A DNA stretch of 64,000 nt, taken from Hymenopellis radicata. Taxonomy: Eukaryota > Basidiomycota > Agaricomycetes > Agaricales > Physalacriaceae. The position numbers and the translations under genes were made by a program. Shown here in pieces: positions 5,381-42,438 of the stretch (position 1 is the stretch's first letter; every line of letters begins with the position of its first letter). The notes beneath the pieces were generated by a model, which saw only the letters and a list, made by a program, of their open reading frames with translations, searched no databases and was not told where the DNA came from. Location: the NCBI GenBank assembly GCA_015501595.1, contig JADNRX010000175.1, positions 45,391-109,390 of the forward strand. The letters are read 5' to 3'.

Positions 5381-7801
5381 TCTTTGTGTGATTTCAGTGT
5401 ATATTTAGGTAGCTTGTTAGAGAGTATTAGCACAGGAAGAGACTACTTAGCGTTGTTTTGCTGCCACTGTCCGCCATGTCGCCGACTCGAGACATATCAT
5501 GATAGGAATGCACAGCGCTAAAGCTTCGATTCTCTTTGATTGTTGCCAAGCCCTCGTCAATGAGGAGTTGAAGATGTTTCCGGCTCGCTGTTCAACGCGT
5601 AATTAGAACTTGGCTATACGATAAGCGTCCTCCTCCTTCCTTCCATACACTCACGCAGTTTCAGCATACTCGGCGGCGGTACACTGTACGCAAGATCGGG
5701 TCAACTGCCGAATGCCGAAACAATGCATTCTCGTAGCTATCTAGCGTCAAATCTGTGTCGCTTTGGTTGCATCGCAATCGAGGACATGCATCACACATTT
5801 GTGTGTTGCCCTCAATTCTCGACATACGCGCGGATGCGCTGAAGGATGTTGAGCGGGTAACGAGAATGCAATCAAGACCGGCGACAAGGACTCCAAAGTG
5901 TCCAACTTTCCCTTGCTTAAACATGCGGCTGAGTCCCTCTTCCTTGACAATCCTGTCATCTGGCCTCTTGCATTGACCCAGTTTTATTTAGGCCATGTTC
6001 CTCCTCTTGATGGGCTCATACCTCGTGATGCTTTTTCCAGTGGCATCCTACGGGACAGGGTCCTTCGAAATATTTCCTCTTCTTGGCACATTACCTTTGT
6101 TCGACTTGCCGGACGCATCTGGGGCGATTACACGCGTCGGGTTGCCACATCCAAGGGCATATCCGCACGTCGTTTCCGTGCAAGCAACTGACTTTTCATG
6201 TTTACCGTTCTCACCGATAACCCGGTAGCTTTCCCTGACGTGGGTTTTGTCCTCACAGAGGTTTTCCCCGCAGGGTTTTGAGGCACCCGTGGTCTGCGTC
6301 GCCATTCACTGTCATGACATATACGGTCCGTCGGGACTATGTCCTTAGCTATTTATTTAGCGTAGCGGAATCTATGCAAAGGGCACAGCAAACGACTCCG
6401 ATCACGATCACAAATCTCATCCCAAATCCGACGACATCACGTGTCCAAAATTTGTTGATAAGCGACGGTCAAGGCAATCCTCGCTAACTCTGGCGGTTCT
6501 TTCAGCTGTCGTCGACTGAATGGTATTTGAAAAATTCTTTATGACTACTATTGAATACCGGTATGTGAAAACCTTGGATCATAAAATGCGGCATGGACCG
6601 CCGACTAGGTCTCATGCCCGTCGCCATTCTTGTCTTATCTTAACCCAACTACATGGGTACTCAACACCGAAGCATTATTTGACCTGGTGAGTCGCGTCAT
6701 TCACTCTGCGATTCTCTTCGTCTTGATGTGTAGTCTTAACGTCGTCTGGCAGGATGGCATACTACACGGTGGAACACCCACAATCGCTACAGACCCGAGT
6801 ATACACACACATCACTATGCAACTTCTTCACGTGTGTCTTTGACCGAATGTGAAGTACAAGCCACATGCACGTCGACCTAATTGTCCAAGTTGATCCAAA
6901 TCGACCTGATACGCAGGCTCGCGATGCGGCGTGCTTACCGCACCGTTCATCCCGAAGCCCCTCCCGTCGGAGTCTTCCGCTAACATGCGGCATGAAGTAT
7001 GGAAGCACGGTCCCTCATTGTATCGGTAACTACCAACAGTGGACTCGATGGTTGGGCGACGTCCTGGGCGTAGTATCCATACATGGCACCGGTCGACACA
7101 GCTTGACACGAATACCATATTCGGCCTCGGCTTTCATGAACCCAACTTCCAAAGGCGTTACTATTCGATAATATCTCCATTCGTAGCATCCTTACGGCGG
7201 TCAGAACCCTGTTGGTATATCACACCCCCCCGCGACGTGATAAAAGGAAGAGGCAATCAACCCCGATCGGGAACGACACAAAGCAAGCAATAACACGTGT
7301 TGGAAAAGTTATGCACACGCGATCACTGGGTCGAAAATCGACTTTCCAGGACGCTTTGACCAGCGACGTTCAATGCGTTAGGGAACGCGCAGTCGTCTCG
7401 AAGAGGTCCTACATCCAGTTGTCGCGTGAGTCGCTCGCTGCTCTATTAGACTGTCATTAATGCTGATATTTTTTAAAGCTCTTTCTGTCAGGATCAATCA
7501 GGCGCCGTACAAAGAAATTCTTTGGGGTTATTGGGTCTTTCATTCTAGAACCGTATTTTAGGACCACCCGTCTGATGCTTAGGGTTCGTTGTCGGTGTGC
7601 ACCTACCGCGCTTTCAACCATTTCCTAAAACCCTTTCGTTATAAAGTCGTGTGCTCGAACAGGGCGCGACGACTCCTCTTCGTTCTCATATTAGACATCC
7701 GTGTCATTGATTTGTGAGTTGTCTTCCAACGTCTGGCTTTCGCCTCTGACGCCTCTCATTCCAGCCACAGATCTTCGTTCGGTGTACATTCTTCTTTCAT
7801 A
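5381..7801. other. No recognised gene (2.4 kb)
   Basis: Only short, mutually inconsistent open frames are present. The most protein-like is a hydrophobic plus-strand frame at 5995-6228 (FLLLMGSYLVMLFPVASYG). The nearest downstream frame (6278-6487) could be joined only by a 34-nt intron, which is shorter than any other intron here. Frames at 6630-7171 on both strands show no family signature. The last 300 bases precede the HMG-box gene and may hold its promoter and leader. Confidence 0.4.
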
Positions 7802-9436
7802 ATGAAAATGACGACAATAACGAGGCGACAACGACCACTCAAGCCTGCACCGGTAACTCCTCCGGAATCTCCTACATTACCAGACACACTCCTACCCATT
7901 GTCAATGTCCGCTCAGACGACTGTCCAGTCAAACCCGCCACGCTCATCGGCCCCATCCGCATCAAGGAGACCGAGACCATGAGATCGGGACGGGACCCCC
8001 ACGCTCGCACAAAGCTCGTACTGCCGCGGCGGCTCCGATTATGCTACCAGGCGGCGGCGCCCCCCGTCTCCCAACCCCCACCGCGCTTTCCCTCACTCCA
8101 ACTGTCCCCGACCCGACCAAGAAATCCCATGCGCGCAAGCGCCCACCCGGCCACGTTCCTCGTCCTCGTAACGCGTTCATCCTCTTTCGCTGCGACTTTG
8201 TTCGCCAGCAGACCATCCCGCATTCCGTGGAGCGCGACCACCGTAATCTAAGCCGTATCGCAGGTATGATGTGGAGGGGAATGACTGAGGAGATGCGCAA
8301 GCCCTGGATGGCTATGGCGGAACGAGAGAAACGGGAGCATGCAGAGAGATGGCCGGAGTATAGGTATAAGCCTGAGGGGCTGGTGGGACCGAAGAGGAAG
8401 GTTAAATTGACGGGCGCTGGTGAGGAGACGGATGGTGACGAGGAGTTCGAGGTAGGAGGTGACGATGACGAGTATGATGATAGGCGGGTACGGGGCGGGA
8501 GAGGCAGAGAAAGAGAGACGCTGGCGCTGCAGTCGACGTGCCGCATTCGCAGTTGACGTACACCCTCCCTCATCGCCGTTCCTCATCATGCCCGCCTCCC
8601 GGTTCACAGGTCTCTCAGTCGAGTATCTGTGGGCTTGGTACGAGTGATCTTGAGCCACCCTTTACATTCAGCTCGCTACCGCTAGGCGACGAGCAGGTCT
8701 ATGACCCGGCGAGGAAATCCAGCGGTGCGATGGCGCAGGACGACATTACCACCTCTCGCCGCCCTAGTCGCGTTCCCACCTTCCACTCCGTCCAACCCAT
8801 AGGCTCCGTATTCGATTCCGGCATCCACCAATCCCAATTGGGAAACCCTTTCTCTTTCAACGGGAGCCACGACGACCTCGGAGCCGCGTGGAACGACACT
8901 TTGACTTTTCCTTGGGGTGCTTCTGTCTCCCCAGATTCCCCCATGCCCCCGCAAGGGAACGCATATACAAACCACTTCATGGCGCCTACCTCGACCTGGG
9001 GTACAGCGTTTGACTATATGCCGCCATCTATGACGCAGGGGGTTCTCTGAACACGCCCTGGGTGTCGCAGCATCATCATTTGGAGAGCGGGCCGTATAGA
9101 TATATGCTCTACACGCCTGCCATTGAAGGGAACGCGAATGGCTTGATGCACAAGGTATGGTTCCTCTTCTCCTTATTGCTCCAGGGTGTTTACTGGTTCC
9201 TTCAGGCGATGATGAATGGCATACCTTACCCTGAGGCGTGGATCGCTGTGGATTACTCAAATCCATCAACCCCAGTTCTGTCAGCGATGAATGATGGCGA
9301 TGAACACCGCGCCTTGACGGGGCGTCCACTTTTCAACGATCCTTTCTCTCCACAGTCTGCGTCCAGTCGTGCGCCGAGTCCGCGACTCCCGCCCATTTCT
9401 CCTTTGGAGAGCGTACCGCTTGGTTTCGTCTTGTAG
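7802..9436 (+). CDS. HMG-box transcription factor (MATA-HMG type)
   Basis: The diagnostic part is an HMG box at about 8150-8375. It opens with HVPRPRNAFILFRCDFVRQQ and continues through LSRIAGMMWRGMTEEMRKPW and KREHAERWPEYRYKP. The RPRNAFILFR start is typical of fungal MATA-type HMG boxes, which bind and bend DNA. An acidic stretch follows, then an intron at 8488-8552 (GTACGG..CGCAG, 65 nt, phase 0) leading into a Ser/Pro-rich tail. A 51-nt intron near 9154-9204 joins LMHK to AMMNGIPY. Two junctions are unresolved: from the N-terminal frame (7802 to about 8040) into the HMG frame, and near 9050-9071. Relatives act in sexual development, mating or stress responses; which applies here is not visible. 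No mating-type homeodomain or pheromone-receptor genes lie nearby. Confidence 0.85.
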
Positions 9437-30103: not shown

Positions 30104-30476
30104 AAAATCCGCAGACGTGTCCGAATGAGGTGTTTGAACTGCGACTGTGTTGTGTATTCGAATGAAGGTGTTTCCGCAAGCGTTTCAAGATGGATGAGTC
30201 GATGACGGGTCCAAGTGTCAAAGTGTGATGTGAGTGTGCGCGCCGTACTTGCATCCGTCTCAAGAGTACGTCGAGACAGATCGTGAGTCGAGATGAGTCG
30301 CACGTGTTGAGTCGAGAGGCGACGGGTGAAGACGGGAGGAGGGTGACGTCGAGGGTATGCTTCGCAGTGTGCTCTTATCTCGAATAGACGGTACCGGCCC
30401 CGAGATGGTTAGGATTAGGTGGTGATGGTGAGGGTTAGTAGGATTGGGGAAGAGATACAGTATAGCGTATAATATA
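30104..30476. repeat. 656-bp satellite, truncated first copy
   Basis: Matches the second part of the 656-bp unit, starting at AAAATCCGCAGACG. It ends where the RecQ/DUF6589 element interrupts it, just after CGTATAATATA at 30466-30476. Its left edge is abrupt against unrelated sequence. Confidence 0.9.
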
Positions 30477-30527
30477 GTCTCTTATAAACAGACAGACGAT
30501 ACAATGACGAACGAGTAAGTATTGTAT

Positions 30528-30594
30528 GTAGTCTGTCAGTGATCGCGCCCCCCTTGGGTGGGAACCCACCGATTATGTAAATCGCCCAATTAGG
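30528..30594. repeat. Left terminal inverted repeat of the RecQ/DUF6589 element
   Basis: Runs from GTAGTCTGTCAGTGATCGCG to CAATTAGG. It is reverse-complementary to 36507-36573 except for a short variable patch after GATCGCG and a few single changes. It contains the palindrome GGTGGG-AA-CCCACC. Confidence 0.85.
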
Positions 30595-30677
30595 AACACG
30601 CGTCTTGTAGGCGTACCACCACGATCAACTCAATTTAACCGCTTTTTCATGTTCATCCTCGCGTTTATTCACCCAGA

Positions 30678-32998
30678 ATGCCGACGTACGAGTCCTGGAA
30701 CACTCCTGTAGGCAAGGCTACCGTGTACCGCATCGTAACCAAGAGGATACCCGAGTGGAAGGATGGTTTGCACGAGAGGCAAGAGGAACCGACACTGCTT
30801 ATCTTGGATGGGAAGGAATTGGTGCTCTGTGCAGCAACGGGTGATGGAAAATCGGCGCTCTTCATCGTTCCCATCATGTGCCATCAAGAAGTCAGCAAAC
30901 ACGCGGACGAATATTCCAATTTTCGTGTTCGAAGCCAACCAGTTGGGCTGATCATCACGCCGACTAAAGGACTAGCTAGCAGCATTGTATGCATCCAACT
31001 CTACATTCTCGCTATGGCCTCTGATGACAGCTTACAGGTCAAGGGTCTTGCTGAATATGGCATTTCTGGACTCGCGTACGACCGCGAAACCATCCTACGT
31101 GCTGGAAAGGAACGTCGAAATCTTATCAATGAGATTACTGCCTGCACTCTGTATCAAGTCATCTGCATCGACCCCGAACATTTACATGCCCCAGCCTGGC
31201 GAAAAATCCTTGACGCGCCTCTGTTCCGTTCCAACCTTATCTATGCCTGTCTCGAAGAAGGTCACGTCGCCGTCGAATGGGGACAAACATTCCGAGAAGC
31301 ATACAACAACATCGGCACATTCCTGCGCGGTCGTCTCCCTTCCCAGGTTCCTGTCTTCAGCATCTCAGCGACTCTTGAGCCCGGCGCTCCAACGACTGCT
31401 TTATGCAAGATTCTTGGATTTCGAGCAAATAACTTTACTCTCTTTCGGTTCAGCAACGAACGTCAAGATCTTCAGTTCATTATCGAGCCACTAGAGCATG
31501 GCATCACGAGTCGTTCATACCCGCAGCTTCTTCCTTATCTCAACACCGGACGCAAAGTTATCATATACGCGCCTTCACTCGAAATCGTGACCCGCATCTA
31601 TCTTTACCTCTTTCGACTTGAGCCACCTGGTGTCGACCACGGAAAGCGAGTGCGCCAATACTCTGCCCTCTGCGAAGCCGACTTCAATAAGGAAACCTTA
31701 TCGCTTGCAGAAACTGATCCACGGCTTCAAGTAATTATTTCGACGGTAGCACTCGCAAACGGTGTGCATATTCGTATGCTAGATGATAGTCTTTCCGTCG
31801 GTTTCCCTGCCACCCTTTCGCAGACGGAACAGCAGGCTGGCCGAGCGTCGCGTCCTCCCGAGGCCACTGGTAAAGCCGTTATCTTTGTTCAGAAGAGCGA
31901 CATCAAGAATGCGAAGAAGTTTCTCGCAGGTACGTTATTCATTTAGGAATCAATACAGATACTAATACTCGGACAGATCTCGGAAACACCGCGGCTACTA
32001 CAGCCTTAGCCTCGACCTCAAACCCGCGCAAGAAAGGCAAGAAGCAGAAGAAGACTTTACTCGTCGATCCGGCTAAGGCGGAGATTCTAACGGAAACGAT
32101 CTGCTTGAATGCAGCAAGAAATCGACGTTGGCAAAACTCTCCCATCTCAGAGACAATGAAGGACTGTATTGAAGCGAAGCGACCTTTCCCTTGCTCACTC
32201 TGCTGCGCCCGCGAAGACATTGCAATTACATTCCCATCAGTACCTGAACCTCTCTATCCGCCATTTGTCCTGCCGATCCCAAAGTCGAAACGGCCATCTC
32301 TGCCACGCGCTCTGACACTGAAGAAGAAGGAGCGCCCACTTGTACAAGAGAGGCTTGCTGCATTCGGAACAAAAGTCTTCGAAGACGAGCTATACGAACC
32401 TGGGAACGAATATCGGCCAGAATCATCCTTCTTTCCACCTTCCTTGCGTACTCGGCTGACAGACGACATCCTTCGAATACATACAGCTGATCTTCTTGAT
32501 GCCATCCTCATTGCTGCTGATTGGTCGTTTCGCATCGCCTGGAAATCAAGACTTTTTGCAGAGATTGTCGACATTCAATATACTATTGGTACTGCTCGTC
32601 CCAAGAATACGAAGACGCAGTCGACACGACGAGCAACTGGACAAGCCCAAGGACACGGCAAAGGCAAAGGGAAGGCTCGGGAAACAAGACGACGGCCTTG
32701 GGAAGAATCATCCGATGAAGATCAAGAGGACTTTGAAGAAGAGGAACATACCGAAGACGAGGAAGAAGAGAACAATGCTCAGGATGATGTCGAAGATGAG
32801 GAAGAAGGACCTGAGAAAGAGCCGTCACCTCCAGCTGTCATCGACGACACACCTCCAGCTTCCCGTCCGTCCAAACGTGTTCTCGAGGATGTCAGCAATC
32901 GGCCACGACGATCTGTTCGACCTCGACAGCAGGATACATCCGGAGTGAAGACATTAATGGCTGCGATGGGTCCTCAACGAACAAGACGTAGATGGTAG
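30678..32998 (+). CDS. RecQ-like superfamily 2 helicase, transposon-borne
   Basis: Exons 30678-31929 and 31977-32998 join over a 47-nt intron (GTACGT..GGACAG, phase 1), giving about 757 residues. Helicase motifs in order: Walker A CAATGDGKSALF (about residue 57), a motif II position LEEGHVAVEWGQTFREAY (RecQ members read DEAH..QWG..FR..Y), motif III FSISATLEPG, and a C-terminal RecA lobe with VIISTVALANGVHI and motif VI QTEQQAGRASRPP. Motif II is altered from DEAH to EEGH, which may weaken metal binding. After residue 430 come a CSLCC cysteine patch, then a long acidic run and a basic tail. The gene lies tail to tail with the DUF6589 gene, stops 23 bases apart. A role in unwinding element ends or repair of transposition intermediates is inferred only. 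Confidence 0.85.
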
Positions 32999-33021
32999 GC
33001 AAAGATTAGTCAAATTCTTCT

Positions 33022-36000
33022 CTACTCATCATTTTCGATAGACCAACTCCTTACATCAACATCAACATCACCATCACCGACGCCATCATCGTCGTCGTCG
33101 CCATCAGCCTCATCATCTGCTTCTTCCCATCCAGAGCTCCCGTTACCTGCTTCCAGATCTAAATGGAATACCCAGCCTGATTCCACACCGTCGCGACTAT
33201 TATTCTCTTCCTGCATTCCATCCATATCGAATTCATCATCATCCACCACGGAGGACTCGGCGTCAGAGCCGGAGGCGTCGGAGGAGTCCTTCTCGACTGG
33301 CATCTCATTCTCAGAGGAAGCGCCGGCGCGTATGTTTCGTATGGCACCTAGGAGCTTAGCAGTATCAGTTGAATTAAAGAGAAACTCTGTCATTTTGCTC
33401 CCATCCAACGTCTGATAACCGTCGTCAATAAGCTCAACGGCTGCGTGTCCCATGGATCGTGTGGATCGGAAGTAGCGAAGGTTGTCCTCGCGGTATATCG
33501 TCATGAGCATGCGGAGTTCATCACGAAGATGTGTCGACGTGTGAGTCTTTCCACGACCACTAAGCTCGAACGCGGCCTCCAGCTCTTCCTTCAGACGAAG
33601 AAAGAAGTTGACGTTGGGTGAAATCGTGTCGCGAAAGAATGGATCGCTAAAGGCGCCTCCGTGCTTTGCAACCATATCCTCCAACCACTTATTGTAGTGC
33701 TCCTGTAATAAATCGTCCTCGATCCATTTCCCCAGTTCGCCCGTAATATTGACTAGCCAGTTATTCCAAATCGCGTCCTTCAGGTTCTTCGACGCCTCAT
33801 AGCGAAAGAGGCAGTACAGCTCGAGAAGTATTGTCGTATAGTTCTGTCGTGATGCGCCGGCAAACATGAATATCCAGACCTTGGATGTGTAAGTTTTTAG
33901 AAGGAGACAGTGGCACGAACGCTTACCTTGAGAACCTCCATAACACGGCCAATATCACCATCTGACACAGCGTACGAGAGCTCTAACCACCAAAGGAAAT
34001 CGCGGCAAAACAGGATAGAATTTGCCAGAACACGATCGCCTGTAAAACCCTTCGCCTCAACGTGCACCTTTACGCCTGGCTCATTAACTTCGTTCGTCTT
34101 GTCTGGTTCCTTCTCCGCAGGTTCATCTCTAGCAGCAGCAGAAGATGAACCATTATTGGAAGGAGAGTCGTCGACAATGGGCACGACCGGCGTTGTAGAA
34201 GGGTTCCAAGCGGGGCCGACAGGAAACTTATATGTGGAGGAGGCGCGTTCGGCACGGGTAGACGATAATGCCGTGTGGAAAGCTCGAGTTGACATGTAGC
34301 GGTGTACAAGAATATCGGCGTGTACCATCAGACCATCAAGACTTGGCGTGGCATCTTGAGAAGCGAGACGCTCGAAGTACGGTAGTAATCCCGTATGATC
34401 TGTTAAAAAAAGATCCCAACAGTCAAGAACCTGAGCTTCGCAGATGGTACGCATGGTCCTAACAGTAGGATAAAAGTCACAGCTGTTGAGCTTGCTCGGG
34501 ATGTACATATTCGTCGCTGAGGCGGAGCGTGATAAGGCAGATGGATCCTTCGTCGTTCTTGGGCCGTAGTGGTTTTCTGCGATAACGTTGAGCATGTTAG
34601 ACTCGTTGTGCCAGATTCCTGGAGTCCAGATCCTCGACTCGAACGAGTGGTAAATGTCCAGGCTCACCGCCTGAGGAAGAAGATGCCGCTTGACGCGACC
34701 ACCAGACAGAACAGAACCGCCATCTCCTCCATCCCAAAGAAGTACCCGCGCCTTTGCGACAGCCTCTGGTGTATGTCCTGCTGAGGCGTCGAAGTCCTTC
34801 TCTGCCTCCTTCATGCCGTGAACCTCCATCTCCGCATGACTGTTCGCCTTCAATGGCACCACGAACGATTTACGTCCTGAACGCATCCGATGCTTGGCAA
34901 TAGGCTCTGTACGAAAGCGCTCGGAGATACGTGGACGTAAAGGATCTAGAGAAGGCACGTATTCGCAAAGCATGCGAACAACGTGGAGACATTGGACCTG
35001 GTGAAGGTGCGCAAAGTCGACGTCGTCGAGGAGAGCCTGTGTGGTGAGGGAAGCTCGTTCGTTGTTGACAACGCGCTGTTGATAGTCATCCAGATCGAAG
35101 GACCCTGGTTCGCAATCATCGAGGCGAATGGCTGTAGCAGCTGTACCAGTGATCAGCTTGTTCTGCTTGCCGAGGCCCGGTTCATGAACAAGCTGATACT
35201 GCTGGATGTTGTCGAGGACTTTCCGACAGAACGGCTCCTTCTTCTCAAGTGCCTCGCCCGTCGACTTCTGTAAATCAGCCAACCGCTCCGTGCCCATTGC
35301 CGTTAGCGCTTTTCGGACCGTGGAATCGTGGACCGCCTGTCCAAGTCGCGACATGGCACGCTTGATGTCCGTGTGTGCTTTACATGCGAAAAGCCAAGTC
35401 CCAATGGGAAGAGCAAGATATCCATTTGCAGATTTATTTCGACCTATAGCGAACGAACTAATAGCAGCAGCTTGTATCTAAAGGTCGGGTTAGAATAATA
35501 CAACACTTAATAAATAAAAACTTACAAAAGGGTGAGGTCGCTTGTCGCGAATAATAATCTCGCCGTTCTTTCGCGTTGCGGCCATACACTCCGTCATGTA
35601 CCACGTCGTCCTTGCCCGGGCCTTCAGAACGTCGGCAGTACGCTGCATACTGAAGGCGAAGACATCTTCTTGGTTGACGGTGCGGCGTTTACCCTTCTGA
35701 CGTTCGTTGACAGATGCCTGTAAATTGACACGGAAGTCTGGATGGTCTGGGTCGTCCTTGCCCAGACTTCCCACCTCCATCGCGCATCTCTTTCCCACCA
35801 GTGTCGTCGCCCATATCGAGAGGGCAATGCGCGCATGGTGGATGTCGGAAACTTCCTGCTCGGCGTCGAAGGCGTGGTTGAGCTCGTCGGCGTGCACAGA
35901 ATTGTAGTGAGGAACACTGAATCGGTTGCGATAGACCGATTGAATGAAGTCGGCTGGTCGGAAGCGGTTACGGCCACCGAGCCATGCGGACAGCATGTTG

Positions 36001-36458
36001 ATATGCTGTGAGGAACGTGGATCAACATCGTCGCGTGGAATATCTTCCGAAAATGCGTCTGCGAAGTCACCGAAAGAGGAGAAGTGGTGGGAGATAGAGG
36101 TGAGAACAGCGTCGACGTGCTCCCATTTAGATAGACGCTTGGCCGCGGGAACGAGCTCGGGGGAATCTTCAACCTCCAGGTGAAGTTGTCGCAACGAGGT
36201 GCTAAGAGACGACGTTGAGGGAGAGTATGGAGACCCGAGCGGTTCGGGAAAATCACTGAGGGGTAAAGGATCGTCGAATTGAAGGGGAGAAAGCGTGCTG
36301 GAAGCAGGAGAAGCACGATATTGAGCAGCATCAGCGGGCACAGAAGGAAGTTGAGGAATGGCAGGGGGTGGAATTGTGTATTTTTTTCGCTTTTTACTGC
36401 CATTAGGGTTACTCGGGTCATATTGAACGAAGTTTGACGCGTCGTTCGGCGCTGACAT
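33022..36458 (-). CDS. DUF6589 protein, candidate transposase
   Basis: Three exons, 36458-35526, 35477-33927 and 33879-33022, with 48- and 47-nt introns, both phase 0, give about 1113 residues. Landmarks shared with Agaricomycete DUF6589 proteins: ISSFAIGRNKSANGYLALPI and HTDIKRAMSRLG, AFDLDDYQQ-like and LTTQALLDDVDF segments, LLWDGGDGG, IWHNESNMLNVIAENHYGP, DPSALSRSASATNMYIPSK, AQVLDCWDLF, and WIFMFAGASRQNYT followed by LLQEHYNKWLEDMVAKHGG. The tail is strongly acidic (DDDDDG repeats). The upstream GTG at 36503 is not used; ATG at 36458 is the first good start. The family has no assigned function. Its place inside an inverted-repeat element with intact ends, beside a helicase, makes it the only transposase candidate. 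Which acidic residues would be catalytic is not known. Confidence 0.85.
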
Positions 36459-36506
36459 AGGCCAGACGCGCTCGCGTTGTCGTGGTAGGAGGGAAAATTG
36501 CACCTG

Positions 36507-36572
36507 CCTAATTGAGCGATTTACATAATCGGTGGGTTCCCACCCAAGACCCCCGCGATCACTAAAGGACTA
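36507..36572. repeat. Right terminal inverted repeat of the RecQ/DUF6589 element
   Basis: Reverse complement of the left end: starts CCTAATTGAGCGATTTACAT and ends GCGATCACTAAAGGACTA, directly against the satellite sequence CGTATAATATATAATAAATG. The DUF6589 start codon lies only 49 bases inside it, so the repeat may also carry that gene's promoter. Confidence 0.85.
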
Positions 36573-37966
36573 CGTATAATATATAATAAATGATAATGAT
36601 TATAACTCAATGAACGGCAGGCGGCCAACGGCCGCCGTTCAACACACGTCTCAATCGAAACGCGCTTCTCGAGTGGGCGACGGCGGGCGGGGCGAGGCGT
36701 TGAAGCAGACGAAGATCCGAGTCAAGTCGAACTGAACGCGGTGTTGAGAGGCAAGTCAAGATGGCGTTCAACTGTTCAAAGCGAGTCTGATCTCAATCAG
36801 CGTCTTCGCAGTGAAGTCAAGGTGAAGGCAAACTCCAGACTGAGTACTGACTGAAGTGTTGAGTTGAAAATCCGCAGACGTGTCCGAATGAGGTGTTTGA
36901 ACTGCGACTGTGTTGTGTATTCGAATGAAGGTGTTTCCGCAAGCGTTTCAAGATGGATGAGTCGATGACGGGTCCAAGTGTCAAAGTGTGATGTGAGTGT
37001 GCGCGCCGTACTTGCATCCGTCTCAAGAGTACGTCGAGACAGATCGTGAGTCGAGATGAGTCGCACGTGTTGAGTCGAGAGGCGACGGGTGAAGACGGGA
37101 GGAGGGTGACGTCGAGGGTATGCTTCGCAGTGTGCTCTTATCTCGAATAGACGGTACCGGCCCCGAGATGGTTAGGATTAGGTGGTGATGGTGAGGGTTA
37201 GTAGGATTGGGGAAGAGATACAGTATAGCGTATAATATATAATAAATGATAATGATTATAACTCAATGAACGGCAGGCGGCCAACGGCCGCCGTTCAACA
37301 CACGTCTCAATCGAAACGCGCTTCTCGAGTGGGCGACGGCGGGCGGGGCGAGGCGTTGAAGCAGACGAAGATCCGAGTCAAGTCGAACTGAACGCGGTGT
37401 TGAGAGGCAAGTCAAGATGGCGTTCAACTGTTCAAAGCGAGTCTGATCTCAATCAGCGTCTTCGCAGTGAAGTCAAGGTGAAGGCAAACTCCAGACTGAG
37501 TACTGACTGAAGTGTTGAGTTGAAAATCCGCAGACGTGTCCGAATGAGGTGTTTGAACTGCGACTGTGTTGTGTATTCGAATGAAGGTGTTTCCGCAAGC
37601 GTTTCAAGATGGATGAGTCGATGACGGGTCCAAGTGTCAAAGTGTGATGTGAGTGTGCACGCCGTACTTGCATCCGTCTCAAGAGTACGTCGAGACAGAT
37701 CGTGAGTCGAGATGAGTCGCACGTGTTGAGTCGAGAGGCGACGGGTGAAGACGGGAGGAGGGTGACGTCGAGGGTATGCTTCACAGTGTGCTCTTATCTC
37801 GAATAGACGGTACCGGCCCCGAGATGGTTAGGATTAGGTGGTGATGGTGAGGGTTAGTAGGATTGGGGAAGAGATACAGTATAGCGTATAATATATAATA
37901 AATGATAATGATTATAACTCAATGAACGGCAGGCGGCCAACGGCCGCCGTTCAACACACGTCTCAA
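36573..37966. repeat. 656-bp satellite, copies 2-3 of the array
   Basis: Tail of the interrupted copy (36573-36646) and two complete units starting at CGTCTCAATCG (36647-37302 and 37303-37958), then 8 bases of the next unit (37959-37966), which are the left target duplication of the hAT element. The units are nearly identical, with single changes such as GTGTGCGCGCC to GTGTGCACGCC. Each holds a TTAGGATTAGG..GGGTTAG run and the palindromic patch CGGCCAACGGCCG. Confidence 0.95.
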
Positions 37967-40900
37967 TAGTGAATAGCGCGGGTCGGGTTCGGGTATGCGG
38001 ACCGGTGCCCGAACCCGACCCGCCGAGCAACCCTCACCCGACATGTCGGGTGCGGGTTTCGCATCGGGTAACCCGCGGGTTCGGCTAGGGTAACGGGTGA
38101 CCCGATACCCGCCTCAAGATCTAGTTCAAACGACGTAAAAACAATGTATTTAGGATCACTAACAGTATCTAACATGTACGGTAAATGTACACAACGGCAA
38201 TCATGAATATAATAGTCCATAGCAGTATGAAAAGGATCATTTACTCTCTCGAAATAGTATCAAAGCCATCCGGCATCAAGATATCACCTTCCTCGTTCCC
38301 ATCCTCTTCACGCGGGGCAGGCATCTTGGTGACTTCTCCAATATCACGAAGATCAATCATGTCTGCGCGACTCCAAGCGCCGAGGCACATGAGGGCGCGA
38401 GCAGTCTGCGCAGAGAGTCGATTCCGAATATGAGACAGTAGAATACGGCCTTGACTAAAGAGTCGCTCGACCCCAACCGACGTGGCTGTCAAAGGAATCA
38501 GAAGGGTCGAAGACATATAACATATCACTCACGAGGGATGGACAAGTAGTCCATGGCCATCCGCGAGAGAACGGGAAACTCGTCGCGGCGCTTGTGCCAC
38601 CAACCCATAACATCCTTGACGTTCTCTCGCGGGGCATCCAGGTAACGGTCCAGTTCGCCAGCGGGGTCGTTGATCTGCTTGGCGGGCTGGGGCTCATCAT
38701 CGTCGTCGTCGGAGAACATGTTGGATTTTGATTTTTTGACAGTCGTCGCCTATTCATGAATCATGATGAGTGTATTGTACGCAGCATGAAGAAGACAGTC
38801 AGCATACCTGTGTAGAAGAAGGAGCCTCTGCAGGAGCCGGCATACCAGCCCTATAAGCCGTGAGATACTCGTCGAAGACGCGTCGAATAAGGGCGTTTGC
38901 GTCGGACTTCCAGTCAATGGGCCAGTTTTGTTCATCGAAATAGCCGGTCTTGTATTTGGGGTGCATAACTAAGCAATAGTTAATGCACATAGCACAAGGA
39001 ATGAAAGAATACGACATACCTAAAGCGATACGGTAGACCTCAGACTCGTCTGATAGACTGTAATATTTGTTGAGCGTGTCTTTGGCCACGAGGACGGCCG
39101 CTTTCATGGGCGAAGCAAGGATCACATCCGGCTCATCACCGCGCTTTCGAACGACGGCCGTGGCGAGCATTGCATCGAGTTTGTCCATGGCTGGAATGAC
39201 CGTCGCAAGGTTGGCGTCCTCGCGAGAGAAGTACGTAGTAGCGTCCTTAAAAGCCTGCAAGACTTTCAGACGACAGGATAAAAGAAATGCAAGAAGTAAA
39301 TAGCTTACCCCCAGAACCTCGCAAAGGTTCTCAAGTGCTGTCCACTCTCCAGATATCATCGAGTAGTCAAGCAGCGCATCCTCGCCGGTAATGTCCCGAA
39401 TCACTTTCTTGTATTGGATGGCTGTCGTAAGCATATCATAAGTCGAGTTCCAACGTGTTGAGACGTCGCGGGGTAGGACTTTCGCGGGGAGGCGGTGCTC
39501 CTCAACGAGCTTCTTCCAACGAGGCAGGAGGATAGTCGTCGAGTTAATGATTTTGAAAGAGATCGTACGAATCTAAGAAGACGTAAGTACGGCGCTTAGC
39601 AAAACAAAAACTGAATACGCCGATGACAGCGTGGGATGAAAGAACCCACCTTCCGTAACGCAGAAGCAACGAGCTTTGTCTCTGCCCGGAACTTCTCTTT
39701 TTGCGCCTCCGTCATGTTGGAAAAGGCATCGTAGACGTCGTCGGGATCGTCTTTGTCGGCAGTGCCACCTTCCTCGATCTCGCGGAGCCGTACCAAGATG
39801 TCCTCCGTCTCGAATGTATCCTCCTTCCCGACAGCAGCTGCAGTAGCCGCTGCCTCGTCGTCGTCCTCTTTCCCACCTTTGCCCTTGGACTTCTTCGCTG
39901 GCGCGTTGAATAACCGCAGCATACTCTTCGCAACCAAGTTCACAACATGCGCGAAGCAGCGAGTCCGGGCTCGTGGACCTCCGAAGTTGGGTAGCCCGTC
40001 GACAAGACACTCCATCATGACATCGTTGGGGGCGGCGTTGTCGCAGGTAACGCTGAGAATCTTCGACGTTTCATGAGTTAACACAACTATAGATATGACG
40101 AAGCGAACCCACCTTCTCCTCAAGACCGAATTCTTCCAGGATCGTTTTCGTGAGCACAGCAAGAGCCTCGCCCGTGTGCGACTGTAAGAGCAATTATCAG
40201 TATAGGTCAATAAGAACCTTGGTAAGTCATACCACAGGCAATTCGCGGAAGTCGAGTACTGTGCTCACACATTGCCCATCTTCTTCCCAGTGCGCCTTAT
40301 AGGCGACGAACGCCTTGTGATTCGGTGAAGTCCATGCATCCAAGACAATATGAACCCGACTTTTGAGGCCCTACAACCTAGTGAGTCCTCACTACCTTTC
40401 TAAATGTGGTGATAACTTACCTTAAATTTCTTTGCGAGCCGACGACGCGTTTTAGCAAACAGAATCTTCGTATCGCGTGAGACAGTAGTCGGATGAGGGA
40501 TGTAGGTTCCAGGACGGCCGGTCTTCATGAGCTTCTTGAAGGCACGATCCGCAACGACGTTGAATGGTCGGAAGTTCTCCGCGCACCATCGCGCACATTC
40601 GGCTCTATCGCAGTATCGGTGAGTAGCTGCTGTATCAAGGCTATCCATTACTTACCTCGTTTCAGCATTACTCAAAGGCATCGTCGCGTATATCTCCTTC
40701 CCTTTCGCAATGATACCCTGCAGCATCGAGGTAAGAACACCTTGCTTCTTCTTCCCGGCCTTCTTAACCATTTCGCGTGTTGCCTGTAGGTCGGCACCTT
40801 CGAACGCCGCCTTCACCGCCTCAACACCAAAGCATTTTTCAGCATGGAGACGCAAACCGTGTCCCGAAGACTTATCCTTGGACGTCAAGTTCCGATAAAC

Positions 40901-42438
40901 GTTCTTTCCGCACAGTTCGCACTTCCATGCCTCGTGCGGGACGTCCTTCGCTGTCTGCGTATCCCTGTCAACGATTTTGACATCGGCGGCGTAGAATCCA
41001 TAAACGGGAGATCGTAAGTTTCGAGTTTTCGGAGGTGCTGGAATATACATTAACGGACAACAGGTATGAAGGATAGAAGTCGACGTACGCGGGTTATCGC
41101 TTTCGTCGTCGGCGATGTTGGTGGCCTTGGGGAGCTCGGACATATTAATGGTGCGTGAAGCCTTTCCCTTCTTTGTTGCCTTGGTGTTCTTCTTCTTCTT
41201 GGGCTTGGCGGCGGCGCGTTCTTTGCCTGGTGAGATTGTGAGCCTGTTACTGACAACATACTTTTAGGGTCTTCACCTTTTGCTGTCGGCTTGGATGTCC
41301 GGCCAGAGCGACGCGGTTCAGGTTCAACAGAAGAAGCCGATGGGGTGCGTGCCTTGTCTGTACTCAGGTCGTTAGTACGATGGCTAACTTTTCGCTAGAC
41401 GACTTACCTTTGCCTTTGCCTTTGTACTTGGGACTGGAACGACGTGCGCCGCCGCGCTTCTCAGCCACGACGGGCCTACCAGTGCGGCCGCGCTCCTCAA
41501 GACCATCACCGTCCTCCTCCTCCTCGTCTGACGATGGCGAGTCGGAACTCTTATTAGCATCATGAATGTACACATCGGAGTCGTCGTCGGAAGACACCTC
41601 AATAACAGAGGCTTTGTTAGAGCCGCGGGAGGGACGAGAGGTGGTGGGCTGAGGCTGATGTTCATCCTCTTCGTCGACATCCATAAACCTGGAGTCGTCG
41701 AAGTGAAACGAACCTATATCATGGTTCAATCGATAAACTTGAGAGGTAAGCGTAAAACAACGTACTCGCGCCCTCAGATGATACTGAATGCAGACTAGGT
41801 GCATAGTCCTGCGGGTCTTGGTCGATGGATGGGTTAGGGGAAGCATGGGGTGACGAGGAGCGGTTGCGGGGGGAAAGAGACCGGCGGATGAAGTTGGCAG
41901 TACGACTGACTGCCTTCTTGACCGGCTGGTAAATTATACCCGCCGTCCGGGAGATCTTGGAGGCCGTAGAGCCTGTAGGAGACTTAGAGGCGCGCCGCTT
42001 GCGCGACCGCTCATCGTCCGAGGCCATATAAGTAGTAGCAGTAGATTTATGAGATGGATGTGAGCGGGGGGGTAAGTGGGATAGTAAAATTCATGTACAA
42101 GTCGAGTATTTATTCCAGTAATTTCACAATGTTCGAGTCAGATGGTTGTTTCGTGTTGACAGAGTCTGTCTCGGGTGTAGCACTGAGCAGTTGGGAGTAT
42201 CGAAGGCCCAAGAGTGTAACATGGTAACAGATTTGGTGTCATAGTTAAAGTAAATTTATTTCAGTGTTTCTAAGGTGATTCTAAGTGACGGGAGTAGCGC
42301 CACAAGCACTTAGGAGGATCGGGTGCTCAAAAGGGTATCGGGTAGGGGCCGGGTCACGGACCGCCAACCCGAGCCCGACCCGACCATTGTACCCGGTGAC
42401 GACCCGGTCCGGGTGACCCGTACCCGCGCTATTCACTA
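37967..42438. mobile_element. Autonomous hAT transposon
   Basis: 4,472 bp bounded by TIRs TAGTGAATAGCGCGGGT and its reverse complement. It is flanked by a perfect 8-bp duplication CGTCTCAA (37959-37966 and 42439-42446). Removing the element and one duplicate restores the 656-bp satellite exactly. Subterminal regions of about 150-200 bp on each side are dense in CGGGT/ACCCG motifs, as in hAT transposase-binding zones. One multi-exon transposase gene fills the interior. Confidence 0.95.
38241..42027 (-). CDS. hAT-family transposase
   Basis: A leftward gene of about ten or more exons from ATG at 42027 (MASDDERSRKRR) to the stop at 38241. In order: a basic/acidic disordered head; a BED-like zinc finger (WKCELCGKNVYRN ... 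HGLRLHAEKC, about 40840-40930); the first catalytic Asp in VLDAWTSPNHKAF (about 40330); the second in VTCDNAAPND (about 40035); RCFAHVVNLVAKS (about 39930); STRWNSTYDML; WWHKRRDEFPVLSRMA; and the C-terminal dimerisation motif VGVERLFSQGRILLSHIRNR with the third acidic residue. The intron after SSEGA (GTACGT..ATATAG near 41710-41765) joins in phase. No stop codons were found inside exons and the TIRs are intact, so the element may be active. Confidence 0.9.

Follow-up and report, generated by a model that had tools for sequence, protein, structure and literature searches.

What kind of element lies in the genome of the mushroom Hymenopellis radicata where two genes, one encoding a RecQ-like helicase and the other a DUF6589 protein, fill about 6.1 kb between inverted ends? 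The locus was found in a 64,000-nucleotide stretch (hereafter the window; GenBank contig JADNRX010000175.1, positions 45,391 to 109,390, forward strand), and a previous interpretation made without database searches (the sequence-only reading) had proposed a transposon of an undescribed type, with DUF6589 as its transposase and the helicase as an accessory. Our analysis indicates that the element is very likely a complete, apparently autonomous DNA transposon of the AcademH type, an assignment that rests on matching published features and not on comparison with Academ transposase sequences. The transposon class itself is probably not new.

The window belongs to a contig (C491) of 109,390 bases in a 75.5-Mb genome assembly. 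Reading inward from positions 30529 and 36572, 57 of the first 66 positions of the two ends match, which bears out the inverted ends of about 67 bp described in the sequence-only reading; a repeat search returned inverted arms of 75 nt at 85%, with a few of their bases outside the element. At the right end TAGTCC leads directly into the inverted repeat, whereas the left end is 54 bases longer before the shared repeat begins. Because these additional bases form a hairpin module, the true left terminus is placed 54 bp further out, at 30475; the boundaries first given (30477 to 36572) were therefore exact on the right and off by 2 bp on the left. The element is bordered on both sides by a 9-bp target duplication, CGTATAATA, and both flanks are part of a 656-bp tandem repeat, so that the direct repeat originally noticed at the junctions exists at two levels, one inside the other. 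Other 656-bp units contain the joined flanks uninterrupted and so display the empty site: at 37229, 37885, 43021 and 43677, 31 bases upstream, the 9-bp site present once and 40 bases downstream are identical to the joined flanks. Both genes were confirmed to have intact reading frames, and from its sequence the element appears to be a complete and autonomous DNA transposon.

Shared ends and target duplications, which the sequence-only reading had suggested looking for in Agaricomycete genomes, occur at many copies in this one. A search with the left end yielded 40 scored matches; 30 of these were retrieved as loci, and 29 left ends beginning with TAGTC were placed (the window's included; one copy occurs on two contigs, as L019 and L020), while L035 was omitted from the duplication count as a repeat of the L012 copy. 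For 18 of the 29 left ends the opposite side shows CTA and then an exact 9-bp duplication, and 3 of the 29 have an exact 10-bp duplication, compared with an exact 9-mer duplication in 1 of 812 controls in which flanks were swapped between copies. Nineteen of the 21 copies with exact duplications measure 494-512 bp and have the same ends, being too short to hold the genes. The search for duplications reached 1.6 kb only, and long copies were consequently scored as misses. Among the 11 left ends without an exact 9-mer after CTA, three have the 10-mers, one (L022) has a 9-mer with one mismatch, and the rest are long gene-bearing copies (L009, L017, L019, L020, L021 and L025) or L018, which is near a contig end. 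Duplications flank six of the eight long copies examined, namely the window's (9 bp), C471 (6091 bp), C796 (5941 bp), C851 (6004 bp) and C391, each with 9 bp, and C627 with 10 bp; none was found when looked for at C763 and C963. Across copies, the duplications are 9-10 bp long and have no fixed sequence.

Both genes are repeated in the genome, in counts that represent lower bounds: at least 88 exon-level DUF6589 matches were grouped into 45 loci and at least 47 helicase matches into 34. For 30 of the 34 helicase loci there is a DUF6589 locus within 8 kb, and in every one of these pairs the genes converge, as they do in the element; by chance, a DUF6589 partner within 10 kb is expected for about 1% of helicase loci. 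Viewed from the other gene, 30 of 45 DUF6589 loci have a helicase match less than 8 kb away and 15 do not. The pairing is kept at helicase identities of 28-30% (C851 and C963). These data support a regular association of the RecQ-like helicase with DUF6589, as had been supposed. Beyond the scan of this genome, among the matches listed, 14 of 54 helicase proteins are on a contig equal in size to that of one of 97 DUF6589 proteins from the same species, equal contig size being only a proxy for linkage; the remaining 40 carry no weight against such linkage. Five of these helicases are from Hymenopellis (the same genome again) and nine from Mycena, and one helicase/DUF6589 pair in Mycena sanguinolenta carries the consecutive tags C8R45DRAFT_1107948 and 1107949.

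Some features of individual copies were recorded alongside these counts. Matches at L001-L008 and other DUF6589 loci contain in-frame stops in some cases and are open in others; from these sequences the family seems to be a mix of intact and decaying copies, and intron read-through may be responsible for part of the stops. The copy present on two contigs, C1342 and C1295 (L019/L020 and L042/L043), has an identical flank beside its left end and perhaps represents two haplotypes or an assembly duplicate. A divergent DUF6589/helicase copy, L072 on C963, has two pairs of inverted repeats, one nested in the other (311-351 with 7884-7924, and 466-536 with 7717-7788).

The structure predicted for DUF6589, with a predicted local distance difference test score of 89.5, gave Hermes, the P element and RAG1 as its top VIA-align matches, and rows 1-18 were all DDE/D transposases or RAG1. 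The fold claim is based on VIA-align, and the absence of other families from its list carries no weight. Run with the same model on the PDB and on viral libraries, Foldseek found no match at an expectation value (E) <= 0.001, and a DUF6589 profile search of PDB sequences gave a single match, at E 1.9. A Pfam scan of the exons of the gene found no family besides DUF6589 at E <= 1, and NCBIfam gave nothing at E <= 1. The only acidic residues of DUF6589 that are kept without exception include a plausible D-D-E triad, for which the candidates are D275-D438-E742 (P0001 numbering), corresponding to residues 400, 563 and 888 of the element's gene model. Because of the predicted fold and these exceptionless acidic residues, DUF6589 is very probably a transposase, with a predicted DDE/D, RNase H-like fold. 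This favors the role that the sequence-only reading had assigned to it, and the predicted transposase-like fold with its plausible triad agrees with the structural check that reading had suggested. When a profile of 40 DUF6589 proteins was used to look for animal relatives, it recovered 35 proteins that were fungal wherever an organism was named. No paper naming DUF6589 was found in our literature search; that the family belongs with a transposon carrying a helicase may therefore be unrecorded, and new, under that name.

The helicase matched PF00270 in Pfam at E 4.8e-15, with PF00271 slightly short of its cut-off, and its top NCBIfam model was TIGR00614 (recQ_fam) at E 2.1e-19, under the curated cut-off. 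The closest solved structure in the PDB is 1oyw, a RecQ of bacterial origin. When 20 helicase proteins out of the 54 among the matches listed were aligned, four cysteines past the helicase core proved invariant, a pattern resembling the RecQ zinc site. The Walker B motif reads LEEGH in the element's helicase, and its second E and the H are invariant in the 20 aligned proteins. All introns of the two genes are GT-AG; three (47, 48 and 47 nt) are of the 47-48 nt initially reported, and one is slightly longer, at 51 nt.

The 54 additional bases at the left end hold a stem-loop. Of 26 left ends, 23 were aligned, with L012, L036 and L038 omitted as close duplicates, and the stems were tested in the 22 whose arms could be compared, which comprise 17 different arm pairs, L071 being kept apart on account of its different inner stem. 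The mean uninterrupted stem was 6.24 bp, compared with 4.56 bp when the 3' arms were shuffled among sequences, and 0 of 5000 shuffles reached 6.24; shuffling leaves relatedness in place, and this count is thus not a probability. Stems are only 3-4 bp long in 3 of the 17 arm pairs. Compensatory arm pairs are visible by eye, including ATACAAT/ATTGTAT, ATACCAGT/ACTGGTAT and ATACAACAT/ATGTTGTAT, and the divergent C851 copy has another inner stem, yet folds at the same place. In a hand-picked comparison of single-stranded DNA folding, z-scores ranged from -1.41 to -2.91 for seven left ends and from +0.08 to -1.01 for six right ends. The individual folds are modest, and the case for the hairpin rests more on the compensatory changes.

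We file the element as most probably AcademH because a RecQ helicase together with duplications of 9-10 bp, in a fungal host, is what has been published for that group. Kojima in 2020 (Mobile DNA 11:15) reportedly described, as AcademH, Academ elements from animals and fungi that encode a helicase. AcademH elements produce 9- or 10-bp duplications and AcademX elements 3- or 4-bp duplications, lengths related to the encoded helicase versus nuclease (PMC10045372); AcademH occurs in Basidiomycota, Ascomycota and Mucoromycota (PMC10799480), and a paper of 2013 (PMC3627910) already speaks of "RecQ Helicase in Academ". With AcademH the element shares the RecQ helicase, the duplication lengths, a basidiomycete host, terminal inverted repeats and the DDD/E, RNase H-like fold, which in the element is predicted. 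A possible difference is its one-sided covarying hairpin, of which no mention was found in the consulted portions of the AcademH and Academ literature, the word "hairpin" being absent from PMC10045372. AcademX, of the same superfamily, differs from the element in its shorter duplications and in having a nuclease in place of the helicase. In Marasmius, putative non-autonomous Academ elements have been reported, and KDZ and Plavaka make up about half of the DNA elements of Marasmius oreades (PMC8290104). Our literature search found no paper joining RecQ, transposon, Agaricomycetes and terminal inverted repeats.

Other known systems were considered and rejected. Cryptons use a tyrosine recombinase, and no recombinase model was matched in the Pfam scan; hAT elements are not known to carry a helicase. 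Kolobok elements have TTAA duplications. KolobokH, like the element, combines a DDD/E transposase with a RecQ helicase and is known from fungi only (PMC9587614), but it was rejected because the duplications here are 9-10 bp and variable in sequence. The hAT superfamily, which includes Hermes, was rejected on its usual 8-bp duplications (5-7 bp in variants; PMC12730594) and on the lack of any hAT match in Pfam. KDZ elements (Zisupton, Dileera and Kyakuja) and Plavaka are, like the element, DNA transposons of Agaricomycetes, but duplications are 8 bp long in Zisupton and Dileera and 2-3 bp long in Plavaka (PMC12730594), and the Pfam models of these groups were unmatched. Thus, the claim of a class apart from hAT, Mutator-like elements (MULEs), KDZ/Plavaka, Helitron and Crypton holds with respect to duplication length and the Pfam scan, whereas the description of it as undescribed is not supported, AcademH having already been published.

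The alternative that survives best is a superfamily distinct from Academ that gained its RecQ helicase independently and has 9-10 bp duplications by coincidence. Three points weigh in its favor: the AcademH assignment rests on published features, KolobokH is another superfamily with RecQ helicases (PMC9587614), and the name DUF6589 was not found in the literature searched. The helicase type, duplication lengths of 9 and 10 and the fungal host all fit published AcademH, however, and we consider a distinct superfamily unlikely. A MULE, with its 9-bp duplications, long inverted ends and an accessory helicase, is far less probable, given that the DUF6589-gene exons match DUF6589 alone at E <= 1, that the MULE transposase model PF10551 was unmatched and that Hermes and the P element stand higher in the structural ranking. 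Helitrons lack both target duplications and inverted repeats, and carry a hairpin near one terminus. A rolling-circle, Helitron-like element with incidental inverted repeats would account for the helicase and for a hairpin near one terminus only, but this reading is refuted by the target duplications of 9-10 bp; in addition, inverted repeats are present at both ends, the helicase is RecQ-like with no PIF1 or Helitron model matched, and the DUF6589 model resembles DDE/D transposases, the Helitron enzyme being an HUH nuclease (PMC12730594), so that we give it hardly any credence. Two host genes lying by chance between inverted repeats would explain the intact frames and nothing more. The target duplications refute this reading, as do the empty sites, and it is also at odds with the multi-copy convergent pairs and the short relatives with the same ends, which leaves it a negligible prospect.

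The anatomy of the element is that expected of a DDE transposon which moves by cut and paste and staggers its target cuts by 9 bp. DUF6589 would bind the element ends, cut with the D275-D438-E742 triad and join the element to the two target strands at points 9 bp apart. The hairpin on the left may belong to a site recognized by the transposase or by the helicase, and the helicase could open the ends or aid in processing joined or gapped DNA. A bolder proposal is that the ends are functionally unlike, that transposition requires the helicase to act on the left hairpin or on single strands made at that place, and that DUF6589 defines a separate superfamily or Academ branch with an undescribed mechanism; we view this as rather doubtful, and if true it would represent a helicase-driven DDE pathway. 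DUF6589, a Pfam family of unknown function in many mushroom genomes, gains a probable function, and genes labeled "hypothetical" or "DUF6589 domain-containing" could receive a transposase annotation, with adjoining RecQ-like genes as their partners. The conserved hairpin at one end offers a concrete candidate substrate through which to ask what a helicase does in a cut-and-paste transposon. The DUF6589 link and the one-sided hairpin may be new, and neither makes a new class.

Table 1. Positions of the element and its parts in the window
Feature	Position	Strand	Remarks
Whole element	30475..36572		6098 bp; TAGTC...GACTA
Left target-site duplication	30466..30474		CGTATAATA; site unoccupied in four further 656-bp units
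Right target-site duplication	36573..36581		CGTATAATA
Left-end module	30475..30528		TAGTCTC and covarying hairpin; without counterpart at right end
Left terminal inverted repeat	30529..30594	+	Starts TAGTCTG; 57 of 66 positions agree with right end
Right terminal inverted repeat	36507..36572	-	Starts TAGTCC, read inward
RecQ-like superfamily II helicase gene	30678..32998	+	740 amino acids; three exons; introns 30987-31037, 31930-31976
DUF6589 gene (PF20231), predicted DDE/D transposase	33022..36458	-	1113 amino acids; three exons; introns 35525-35478, 33926-33880
Candidate catalytic codons of DUF6589 gene	35213-35211 (D), 34724-34722 (D), 33702-33700 (E)	-	

The 656-bp tandem repeat spans 30104-30474, 36573-37966 and 42439 to about 44270 of the window. 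Most of the 300-nt segments compared between its units are 99-100% identical, and segments at the edge of the array or cut by a second insertion are 81-86% identical. This second insertion, at 37967-42438 in the same array, has the ends TAGTGAATAGCG...CGCTATTCACTA and an apparent 8-bp duplication, CGTCTCAA, which together suggest a hAT-like transposon; three of its minus-strand reading frames matched no family in a Pfam scan at E <= 0.1. The 656-bp repeat was the insertion target of both transposons.
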